This document shows positions 7,507 to 50,258 of a DNA stretch of 64,000 nucleotides, one piece after another. The notes under the pieces are model-generated. The model saw only the letters and a program-made list of their open reading frames with translations. It ran no database searches and was not told the DNA's origin. Positions within the stretch are counted from its first letter, which is position 1. Every line of letters begins with the position of its first letter. Location: NCBI GenBank assembly GCA_030431975.1, contig JAUIHP010000015.1, forward strand, positions 62,001 through 126,000. The letters are read 5' to 3'. Both the position numbers and the translations under genes were made by a program. This stretch comes from a bacterium. GTDB lineage: Bacteria > Eisenbacteria > RBG-16-71-46 > CAIMUX01.

Positions 7507-8115
7507 ATGAACTGGCAATCGACGCGGGTCTCCCTCCTTGCCCGTGTTCGCAACTTTCAGGACGAAACCGCCTGGCGGGAATTCGACGCACAGTACGGCG
7601 AACTCATTCTTCGCTATGGGCGCCGCCGTGGACTGTCCCTCTGCGAGGCCGAGGATGTGCGACAGATGGTTTGGCTGGGGCTCCTGCGGGTCTTGGAGCA
7701 GTTTCGTTATGACCCGGCCAAGGGACGTTTCCGAGGTTATCTCGGACAAACGGTGCGTCATGCGGTTCACCGCTACAGCAACTCCAGGAATCAAACTCCA
7801 TCGTTGACCCTCGAGGAGTGGACCCGCGCTCTGGAAAATCCATCCGACGACGGACCGCCGGCGGTCGACGAGGAATGGGAGTCGGAGTGGCGCCGTCATC
7901 ACCTGCGCAAAGCCTTCGCCGTCATTCGTGATGACTACAGTGACCGCAGTGTTCGCATGTTCCAGAGGCTTCTCCGCGGCGACCGCGTCGACGAGGTGGC
8001 CCGGGATTTCGAGACAACCGCTGCCGCCGTCTACAAGCTGCAGCAACGCCTCAAGGCCCGACTGCGCCGCCAGATCGAGAAGCAGGTGGAAGATGAGGAC
8101 CGACTCTGTGAGTGA
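7507..8115 (+). CDS. ECF-type RNA polymerase sigma factor
   Basis: A 202-residue sigma-70-family protein. Region 2 spans about residues 15-95 (F-D-A-Q-Y-G, then the D-V-R-Q-M-V-W helix typical of -10 recognition). Region 4 spans about 135-190 with a helix-turn-helix (V-D-E-V-A-R, T-T-A-A-A-V-Y-K-L-Q-Q-R). An AGGAGG 12 bases upstream supports the ATG. It sits directly before a transmembrane Ser/Thr kinase, an arrangement known from planctomycetes and related groups where the kinase may control the sigma factor. The end of the gene lies in the first copy of a 32-bp duplication (8101-8164). No anti-sigma gene is next to it. Confidence 0.88.
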   Translation: MNWQSTRVSLLARVRNFQDETAWREFDAQYGELILRYGRRRGLSLCEAEDVRQMVWLGLLRVLEQFRYDPAKGRFRGYLGQTVRHAVHRYSNSRNQTPSLTLEEWTRALENPSDDGPPAVDEEWESEWRRHHLRKAFAVIRDDYSDRSVRMFQRLLRGDRVDEVARDFETTAAAVYKLQQRLKARLRRQIEKQVEDEDRLCE

Positions 8116-8164
8116 TGACTACTTCGACGAGGCGACTCTGTGAGTGACGACTACTTCGACGAGG
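8101..8164 (+). repeat. 32-bp tandem duplication across the sigma/kinase junction
   Basis: Bases 8101-8132 and 8133-8164 are identical except for one T/C difference. The unit contains the end of the sigma gene with its TGA and the GTG start of the kinase. Because 32 is not a multiple of three, copy one encodes the sigma stop and a first GTG (8108), and copy two provides the GTG (8140) actually joined to the kinase frame. Confidence 0.95.
8108..8143 (+). other. Possible bridging mini-ORF (11 residues)
   Basis: GTG at 8108 overlaps the sigma stop and reads MSDDYFDEATL before a TGA at 8141-8143. That TGA overlaps the kinase GTG at 8140 as GTGA. The first eight residues equal the kinase N-terminus. 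It may carry ribosomes from the sigma gene to the kinase by reinitiation; translation is unproven. Confidence 0.3.
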
Positions 8165-10020
8165 ATTGGTTTGCCGACGACTGGCTCGAGGATGCTTCGT
8201 CCGCTCTCCGACAAGAGTCGCTTGGTGAGCTGGGTCCATACACGGTCTTGGAAGAGGTCGGACGCGGAGGCCAGGGAGTGGTCTACCGTGCGGTCGACTC
8301 GAGGACGAATGAGCCGGTCGCCATCAAGCGTCTACACGGAGGTTCCTTTGCGTCACAAGAAGCCCGTCGTCGCCTGCAACGAGAGCTCGCACTGGTGGAA
8401 CGACTGCACCACCCTGCGATCGTCAGCCCCCGGACACCGGACGGCGATCCTATCGGGGAGAGCACCTGGATCGTCATGGAGTGGATCGAAGGGAAGGAAC
8501 TGCTGGATCGTTTCGACGGGGGCCGGCTCGATCTCAACACGTTCTACGAAGTCGGGCTCGAGATCGTCGACGCGTTGATCCATGCGCATCGGAACGGAAT
8601 CATTCACCGCGACCTCAAACCGGACAACATTCTCATCGACTCGTCCGACCGACCGCACATTCTGGACTTCGGTCTGGCTGCAGACCTCGACCGAACGCGC
8701 AACGCGTCGATCACGGGGACGGCGCAGTTCCTGGGTACGCTGGCATTCTCATCACCCGAACAGTTGGAAAGTCGACTTGGGGAAGTCGACGTTCGGACCG
8801 ACATCTACTCGCTCGGCGTCATTTTCTTCCGCACCCTCACGGGACGAATGCCCTATCCGACCGACGGACGTTTTCAGGATGTGGCACATCACATCGTAGA
8901 GACATCACCGACCTCGCTTCGAAGTGTCTCTCCCGACATACCCGCGGGCCTGGAAACGATCGTGTCCCGAATGCTGGAGAAGCGTCCCGGCGATCGGTAC
9001 GGATCGATGGAACAGTTGGGAGCGGACCTCCGAGCGGTGGCCTCGGGTGAATCGCCGACGTTTGCGGCTCGCGGAAGTCTCGACCACGTCGGGCGCGTGC
9101 TTCGCCGCTATCGACGCACGATGACGTGGGCCTCCGCGATCACCTGCCTCGCTGTGGTCCTGCTCGTAACGCTGACGGCGGCCTACCGCCAGGCGGCCGC
9201 CGAGTCGGCTCGACTGCACAGAGTCGTGGATTTTCTTGGATCGGTTCTCTCGCCCGAAGGACTGGCTTCGGGAGGCGACGAGGTTCCGATGGCGTGGGTG
9301 CTGGGACAGGCTTCGTCCCGAGTGGACGACGAGTTTGGGGACGACCCCCGGTTGGCGGCCTCCGTGCATTACAGCCTGGCCTCGAGTTTTGCATCCTTCT
9401 GGCTCTGGAAGCCGGCGCAGGTGCACGCGGCTAAAGCCGAACAGCTCCTGACGTCGGTCGACGGTGAAGAGGAAACACTGGCGGACGCGGCGCGTTTGCA
9501 CGGGCTGGCCGCAGCGTTCAACGACTCGGACGACGCCGTCGAGATCCTCGAGCATGCGGTCGCGATCGGGGAACAGGTCTACGAGCCGACCGACGGGCGG
9601 CGCTTTGCCGGGTACTCCTTTCTTGCGTTTGCACTCTCACGCGCCGAGGGAAGAGAGGCCGAGGCCGAAGCGGCGTATCGGGCCGCTGCGGAACTGTGCG
9701 AAGCCGTTGGAGGTGAGAACTCTCTGATCTGGGCCGGCACTCACCACAGCCACGGTGCACTTGCGGCCTATCAGGAAAACTATGAGGTGGCGGCCGGACG
9801 CTACGAACGCGCACTGGAGTTGTACGAACGGCTGGACGCGACGGTCCATCTTCGAGAGTGTCGCAAGGATTACTCCATTGCGTTGGCTCTTCTGGGTCGC
9901 GGCGAAGAAGCGGAGTACCAAATGGAGCTGTCCTGTGCGGGGCTACCCGACTCGGTTGCGGCCGAGCGGAGGTCTGCACTCGCTTGGGCCGTGCGACAGG
10001 GGGAGGGCGTCAGGGAGTAG
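8140..10020 (+). CDS. Transmembrane Ser/Thr protein kinase with TPR-like extracytoplasmic region
   Basis: A 626-residue Hanks-type kinase. Kinase motifs: glycine loop GRGGQG at about residue 42, VAIKR lysine at about 60, catalytic HRDLKPDN at about 154, DFGLA at about 174, and SPEQ of the activation segment. Residues 1-25 are very acidic and aromatic. One membrane helix lies at about 328-348, after basic residues, which puts the kinase inside and residues 350-626 outside. The outer part is alanine-rich and helical with repeat spacing like TPRs (e.g. A-A-Y-R-A-A-A-E-L, Y-E-R-A-L-E-L-Y). It probably senses an envelope signal and phosphorylates targets such as the upstream sigma factor, which is inference from gene order. 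The GTG start is at 8140; the first possible GTG at 8108 is cut off by a stop. Confidence 0.9.
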   Translation: MSDDYFDEDWFADDWLEDASSALRQESLGELGPYTVLEEVGRGGQGVVYRAVDSRTNEPVAIKRLHGGSFASQEARRRLQRELALVERLHHPAIVSPRTPDGDPIGESTWIVMEWIEGKELLDRFDGGRLDLNTFYEVGLEIVDALIHAHRNGIIHRDLKPDNILIDSSDRPHILDFGLAADLDRTRNASITGTAQFLGTLAFSSPEQLESRLGEVDVRTDIYSLGVIFFRTLTGRMPYPTDGRFQDVAHHIVETSPTSLRSVSPDIPAGLETIVSRMLEKRPGDRYGSMEQLGADLRAVASGESPTFAARGSLDHVGRVLRRYRRTMTWASAITCLAVVLLVTLTAAYRQAAAESARLHRVVDFLGSVLSPEGLASGGDEVPMAWVLGQASSRVDDEFGDDPRLAASVHYSLASSFASFWLWKPAQVHAAKAEQLLTSVDGEEETLADAARLHGLAAAFNDSDDAVEILEHAVAIGEQVYEPTDGRRFAGYSFLAFALSRAEGREAEAEAAYRAAAELCEAVGGENSLIWAGTHHSHGALAAYQENYEVAAGRYERALELYERLDATVHLRECRKDYSIALALLGRGEEAEYQMELSCAGLPDSVAAERRSALAWAVRQGEGVRE

Positions 10021-49544: not shown

Positions 49545-50207
49545 TTACTTCCCGATGACCCAGGTTGTCATACAACGGGCGTTGGCCACCACCGTCGTTT
49601 TCAGTGGATCCAAGAACTGCCCGCCGAGGTCGGTTGTGACTCGCAAGAGTGTCTCCTCGTCGACGAGAAAGCGTTCACTGCCGTCGGGGAGCTCGAACCA
49701 GCCGTTTCCCAAGGGTCGCAACCGATCCGGATCCATGCCGATCGTTGAGGCGAGTCTCGCGAAGAGCATGCCGCCGGGACGGAGTGCTTTCCAGCATCCC
49801 TCGACCATCCGCAGGAAGTGACTTTCATCTCGGGCGAAATGCAGAACGGCGTTACAGATGACGACCTCCGCCCAAGCGTCCGGTAGTGAAGTCTCTTCGA
49901 TGGGCTCGTCAAGGAAGTGGACCGTACTCAGGACATCTCGGTCGAAGATGTCCATCCATCGTTCCCGGAGAGCGGCTACAGCCTCGCCGTCAGCGTCGAG
50001 AGCAGCGACCGGGTGCCCGCTCCGGACGAAATACTCCAGGTTTCGTCCGCCTCCGCATCCCGCATCGAGGATTCGAGCTCCCGTTGGGATTCGCCCCCGC
50101 AGTACCTGATCGAGAAGGTAGATGTCCATGGACCCGACGAGAGCCGCAAGGCGGGCCGGATCCGCTGACATACCGGGAGGCTCACCCATCTCGGTCGATG
50201 ACCGCAT
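49545..50207 (-). CDS. Class I SAM-dependent methyltransferase
   Basis: A 220-residue protein with a Rossmann methyltransferase fold: motif I I-L-D-A-G-C-G-G-G-R-N (about 45-55), acid A-L-D-A-D-G at the end of strand two, motif IV V-V-I-C-N-A-V-L-H-F, and L-R-P-G-G before strand six. This is the Methyltransf_11/25 class that methylates small molecules or cofactors. Start at 50207, in the right copy of a 32-bp duplication (50195-50258); the ATG overlaps the stop of a 10-residue mini-ORF. The alternative ATG lies 12 codons downstream. Substrate unknown. Confidence 0.82.
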   Translation of the reverse strand: MRSSTEMGEPPGMSADPARLAALVGSMDIYLLDQVLRGRIPTGARILDAGCGGGRNLEYFVRSGHPVAALDADGEAVAALRERWMDIFDRDVLSTVHFLDEPIEETSLPDAWAEVVICNAVLHFARDESHFLRMVEGCWKALRPGGMLFARLASTIGMDPDRLRPLGNGWFELPDGSERFLVDEETLLRVTTDLGGQFLDPLKTTVVANARCMTTWVIGK

Positions 50208-50258
50208 TAGTCGATGACGACACTAGTCGATGACCGCATTAGTCGAGGACGACGATGG
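50195..50258. repeat. 32-bp tandem duplication across the beta-helix/methyltransferase junction
   Basis: Bases 50195-50226 and 50227-50258 match at 28 of 32 positions. On the minus strand each copy carries TAATG, i.e. the stop of one frame overlapping the ATG of the next. The outer stop ends the beta-helix gene (50239); the inner ATG (50207) starts the methyltransferase. Between them is a frame MRSSTSVVID whose TAA overlaps that ATG. Its first five residues equal the methyltransferase start and its last four resemble the end of the beta-helix protein. Confidence 0.95.

Follow-up and report, generated by a model that had tools for sequence, protein, structure and literature searches.

A 32-bp tandem duplication at the stop/start junction between an ECF-type sigma factor gene and a Ser/Thr protein kinase gene

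In the accessible parts of two reports on termination-reinitiation, coupled genes are unidirectional and have a stop and a start that overlap or are separated by a very short gap (PMC6728339, PMC10666635). The latter, in the text available, gives −4, −1 and −8 as the commonest distances among gene pairs, and describes E. coli and H. volcanii reporters whose coupling was nearly gone at gaps of about 20 nt. For mycobacteria, the available text on MIRUs describes dispersed, apparently mobile repeats whose small ORF ends on the downstream start, with a −4 spacing, and may keep translation going (PMC12548453). Sigma factors of group ECF43 have been described together with Hanks-type kinases, i.e., EcfK/PknS and EcfP/PknT, and members of the group are said in the accessible portion of the source to have usually lost the acidic residues of region 2.2, DxxDxxQE (PMC13147305). 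As to how gene overlaps originate, the part available of a 2013 study models point mutations and leaves out insertions and deletions (PMC3887535). Our literature search, with partial coverage, turned up no published instance in which a stop/start overlap had been duplicated.

We analyzed a 64,000-nucleotide stretch of DNA from an uncultured bacterium (the window) in which an ECF-type sigma factor gene is followed by a Ser/Thr protein kinase gene (Table 1). The sigma factor matched Pfam Sigma70_r2 (E = 3.3e-08) and NCBIfam TIGR02937 (51.7 bits, above the cut-off of 42.9), and was 48 and 44% identical to two homologues. The kinase ORF matched Pfam Pkinase (E = 9e-46) and TPR_12, i.e., a kinase domain followed by a TPR-like C-terminal part. 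The duplicated region lies at the junction between the sigma stop and the kinase start, as a preliminary description had stated. The 32-bp duplication that it had placed at 8101-8164 proved exact to the base, both in a repeat search and with TRF, which recovered the identical array (period 32, 2.0 copies). The single difference between copies that it had reported was also found (T8116 versus C8148), so that they agree at 31 of 32 bases (97%), an adjacent match far beyond chance. When a 27-base part of the unit was searched for in the 6,186,365-base genome, allowing up to three mismatches, it occurred at two places, both at the junction; a reversed-pattern control gave no matches. A mobile or dispersed repeat was ruled out, since the unit is present in these two adjacent copies only. 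An origin by microhomology was also considered, and is one possible mechanism. By eye, GAGGA is found at either end of the inferred ancestral segment, at a distance of 34 bp, but the unit is 32 bp, and its edges have no extra matching base.

Table 1. Coordinates of features at the sigma factor/kinase junction (positions in the window)
Feature	Position	Strand	Remarks
ECF-type sigma-70 family factor gene	7507..8115	+	202 aa; stop TGA 8113-8115
GAGG, SD-like	8095..8098	+	9 nt before GTG8108; acidic C-terminal sigma codons
32-bp unit, copy 1	8101..8132	+	sigma stop and putative former kinase start region (GTG8108)
Mini-ORF A, VSDDYFDEATL*	8108..8143	+	11 codons; from the sequence and bridging-ORF enumeration
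Mini-ORF B	8112..8147	+	GTG8112 or ATG8115 to TGA 8145-8147; from enumeration and the sequence
Differing base, T (C at 8148)	8116	+	synonymous Asp in kinase reading
GAGG, SD-like	8129..8132	+	7 nt before GTG8140; built from copied kinase N-terminal codons
32-bp unit, copy 2	8133..8164	+	still-usable kinase start
Ser/Thr protein kinase gene	8140..10020	+	626 aa; start GTG 8140-8142

The gap from sigma stop to kinase start is now +24 nt. Upstream of GTG8140 the kinase frame contains no further ATG, GTG or TTG before it meets a stop, TGA 8116-8118; it opens 3 nt past the sigma stop, and the sole near start is the one at +24. After the 32-bp shift, the sigma factor and the kinase share one frame (8140 minus 7507 = 633). 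The differing base, T8116, gives rise to ATG8115 and also provides the sigma frame with a second stop, TGA8116; the end of the sigma gene therefore reads TGATGA. This second stop matters because the shift brought the two genes into one frame. A sigma-kinase readthrough fusion was set aside, since two stops intervene although the frames agree.

Between the two genes lie two mini-ORFs. As the preliminary description had stated, a mini-ORF runs 11 codons from GTG8108 to a stop on the kinase GTG, and repeats the kinase N-terminus. Both statements held, the TGA at 8141-8143 overlapping GTG 8140-8142 as GTGA (−4) and the first eight residues being identical (VSDDYFDE). The GTG of this mini-ORF (mini-ORF A) precedes the sigma stop with an 8-nt overlap, and an in-frame ATG8093 upstream would lengthen it to 16 codons. 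Mini-ORF B has two starts, GTG8112 at −4 and ATG8115 at −1 (TGATG) relative to the sigma stop; it finishes on the sigma factor's own last codons, its TGA8147 restoring an 8-nt overlap with the kinase GTG.

How readily such bridges arise was assessed by simulation. The flanks were joined to give a single-copy junction, and all tandem duplications of 15-60 bp that held both signals and reached up to 40 nt either side were generated; a bridge was defined as an ORF of the first copy whose end lies at most 10 nt from the second start. A bridging mini-ORF was present in 546 of 1234 such duplications, and in 167 of the 409 with lengths that, like the observed 32 bp, are 2 mod 3. Homologous junctions whose overlaps measure 1 to 11 nt (10 of 17; see below) were simulated likewise. 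With lengths of 2 mod 3, a bridge was present in 416-425 of 429 duplications for each of five −4 junctions (L050, L054, L056, L059 and L065), and in only 7 of 387 for each of two −11 junctions. Bridges are thus to be expected as a side effect when a short overlap is copied, and are no evidence of selection. Mini-ORF A is real but largely a matter of frame arithmetic.

A search of genome contigs with an alignment of three sigma sequences yielded 20 loci, titled Ca. Eisenbacteria, Planctomycetota, Phycisphaerae, Gemmatimonadetes, Ca. Krumholzibacteriota or plain bacterium; two of these, L050 and L053, are the same sequences as G006:C336 and G002:C383, respectively. A kinase adjoins the sigma factor at 17 of the 20, the loci left out being L067, which ends before the sigma stop, and L068 and L069, with no kinase match after sigma. 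A candidate kinase start (ATG, GTG or TTG) overlaps the sigma stop at 16 of these 17 junctions, although the choice of start is uncertain in several. The nearest overlapping candidates lie at −1 to −26 nt, with candidates at −1, −4 or −8 at 8 of 17; L055 has an additional start at +4. The exception is L053, where a 16-nt gap replaces the overlap. Up to 150 nt from the sigma stop, none of the 17 held a tandem duplication (unit 12-80, at least 85% identity). Because 16 of 17 relatives overlap and none is duplicated, the overlap appears ancestral and the 24-nt spacer derived, which supports the earlier proposal that an originally overlapping pair was duplicated. Ancestrally, the kinase may have started at GTG8108 (8-nt overlap) or at ATG8093 (23-nt overlap), the latter being a possibility because its SD-like score is better than that of GTG8108 (see below).

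As in a recent short tandem duplication, the copies are adjacent, near-identical and absent from relatives; that it was recent is suggested by the 31/32 identity within one assembly. A search of genome contigs with the kinase protein returned no close relatives, and searches among relatives and the phylum returned only pair homologues of the same family or order, G002 and G006. Because these nearest pair-bearing relatives share just family or order, the duplication can be dated only loosely. G002 also carries a second close sigma homologue (L044, G002:C321), 48% identical and located at a contig end.

The duplication might be an assembly artefact, in which two strain variants, or contig ends with an unmerged 32-bp overlap, had been joined although the true genome is single-copy. 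In the kinase frame the copies differ by a silent change (GAT/GAC, both Asp), which would be in keeping with a strain variant, the assembly is in 59 contigs, and the relatives and phylum searched included no further genome of the genus. Against this, the estimated contamination is 0.53, and an overlap of 32 bp between contigs would be short for an assembler. We also surveyed near-identical tandem repeats with units of at least 24 bp in 864 kb of the genome, i.e., the window plus 40 further stretches. Judged by eye, the other repeats were in-frame coding repeats (0 mod 3), short-unit arrays, or members of 37- and 61-bp families. No second frame-shifting two-copy duplication of the kind at the junction was found in the 864 kb, which argues against a systematic artefact. 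Taken together, we regard an artefact as unlikely.

Some other repeats were noted in passing. A tandem array with a 61-bp period recurs in this genome (G000; L082:2504, L083:8611, L097:1, L103:3949 and L112:43-530); it contains CACCCGC/GCGGGTG inverted repeats and a CATAAG/CTTATG motif, lies mostly outside long reading frames, and would appear to be an intergenic repeat family of the REP type. Within the window, positions 1-670 hold a direct repeat of 351 bp (1.9 copies, 88% matches) that is cut by the window edge, and positions 50194-50250 hold 3.6 copies of a 16-bp unit, GTCGATGACCGCATTA.

We then turned to the signals for initiation of the kinase. The 16S of this genome ends in CACCTCCTTT, so that SD pairing is possible, and sites were scored against its 3' tail, GGATCACCTCCTTT. 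GTG8140 had an SD-like score of −7.3 kcal/mol, matched or bettered at 45 of 717 control positions, and ATG8093 one of −7.2 kcal/mol (49 of 717 equally strong). The score at GTG8108, −5.6 kcal/mol, was not distinctive (151 of 717 as strong), and that at ATG8115 was weak (−2.9 kcal/mol; 422 of 717). Among the relatives, an SD-like site of −5.5 kcal/mol or lower preceded 13 of 17 chosen starts, versus 642 of 2992 control positions; by eye, most of these sites lie within acidic C-terminal codons of the sigma factor. The predicted unpaired probability was 0.11 for GTG8140 and 0.25 for its GAGG, close to the 0.17 and 0.34 at the single-copy junction. A structured RNA element was ruled out, the junction RNA folding worse than 198 of 200 shuffles.

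Because the duplication set a GAGG 7 nt before GTG8140, direct initiation is an adequate alternative to reinitiation, and this GAGG may be sufficient for direct initiation of the kinase. The spacing is good, the site outscores that before GTG8108, and the poor folding of the junction relative to shuffles also speaks for direct initiation. Counting against easy direct initiation are the low predicted openness of GTG8140 and its GAGG, the fact that GAGG is a mere four-base core, and the controls that score as well.

The preliminary description had suggested that coupling may have been kept through the mini-ORF. Direct coupling over +24 nt is unlikely, since the reporters, in the accessible text, lose nearly all of it at about 20 nt (PMC10666635), and any remaining coupling would then need the mini-ORFs. 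If coupling does persist, relay through a mini-ORF would be its likeliest route. Ribosomes leaving the sigma factor would resume at GTG8108, GTG8112 or ATG8115 and, after 10 or 11 codons, begin again on the kinase, two hops at the classical −8/−4/−1 distances thus keeping the genes coupled. As well as the reporter results, all three distances are present at the sigma stop, TGA8143 and TGA8147 both overlap GTG8140, and T8116 is the only one of 96 possible single changes in copy 1 by which a bridging frame acquires an ATG close to the sigma stop at a position that had no start. However, a bridge arises arithmetically in many possible duplications, the T8116 start joins a frame already opened by GTG8112, and the SD support for ATG8115 is weak. 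The idea that T8116 was itself selected was rejected as weak, since 8 of the 96 changes affect the bridging starts around the sigma stop, either modifying one or supplying a new one, and four of the 8 merely swap existing start codons. We consider such a relay rather improbable; retained coupling of this kind is possible, but is not needed to explain the sequence.

A further version of the relay would tolerate any frame. In the single-copy layout only a restart at −8 reads the kinase, while those at −4 and −1 enter a long wrong frame, the 144-codon one that now starts at GTG8144. In the duplicated layout, restarts at −8, −4 or −1 would all end on stops overlapping the kinase GTG, so that wrong-frame restarts would be collected and given a second chance, T8116 having strengthened the −1 entry. 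We regard this version as distinctly unlikely. The 144-codon out-of-frame ORF (8144-8578) lies inside the kinase gene, overlapping the true kinase start region, and is possibly a decoy for misplaced restarts.

Alternatively, the 24-nt spacer might have been favoured as a regulatory change, because it uncouples the kinase from the sigma factor and shifts their ratio. The available reporter results, in which coupling is lost once the gap is about 20 nt wide (PMC10666635), would fit this proposal, as would L053, which likewise has no overlap. However, this is a single case, and near-identical copies would bear no trace from which selection could be read; we think this proposal very unlikely.

The explanation that we favour, with somewhat better than even confidence, is a recent, tolerated duplication after which the kinase is started directly, mainly via GAGG, with the mini-ORFs mostly incidental. 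The sigma factor and kinase genes would formerly have shared a stop/start overlap like that of the relatives. A slippage-type short tandem duplication would then have copied 32 bp carrying both stop and start, copy 1 retaining the sigma stop and copy 2 providing the kinase start. Since neither protein was broken, the duplication would have been tolerated even with a unit length, 32, that is not divisible by three. The kinase would now start at GTG8140, chiefly with ribosomes recruited at the copied GAGG, and mini-ORFs A and B would be arithmetic by-products with little or no selected role, perhaps adding some handed-over ribosomes. The duplication at the junction was thus probably a near-neutral accident.

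If real, this junction is a worked example of an overlapping pair separated harmlessly by duplication, since a duplication that holds both stop and start spares both proteins at any length. It would also explain simply, and without selection, how short ORFs come to lie between coupled genes, and would serve as a clean natural construct in which to test ribosome handover through bridging mini-ORFs. Were the frame-tolerant relay true, gene pairs could generally arrive at two-hop coupling by self-duplication of their overlap, a route distinct from mobile MIRU-type insertion. As a single case, it changes little on its own.

The likeness to MIRUs, of which senX3-regX3 is reportedly a case in mycobacteria, lies in the −4 spacing at which mini-ORF A ends on the kinase start. 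The difference is that here the junction itself has been copied locally, giving a unit found nowhere else in 6.19 Mb; because this unit is not dispersed, it is not a MIRU-like element. As with ECF43 pairs in the portion of the report available, an ECF-type sigma factor gene adjoins a Ser/Thr kinase gene; however, judged by eye against the motif as described there, the sigma factor in the window keeps an acidic EAEDVRQM (PMC13147305). Within this, AEDVRQ is invariant in the three-sequence alignment. The stop/start overlaps of the relatives and of the inferred ancestor resemble those of termination-reinitiation coupled pairs, as set out in the accessible parts of both reports (PMC6728339, PMC10666635), whereas the genes at this junction are 24 nt apart and coupling would need an intermediate ORF. 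The overlap or very short gap of such pairs is therefore absent from the present junction, and would have been present in its single-copy ancestor.
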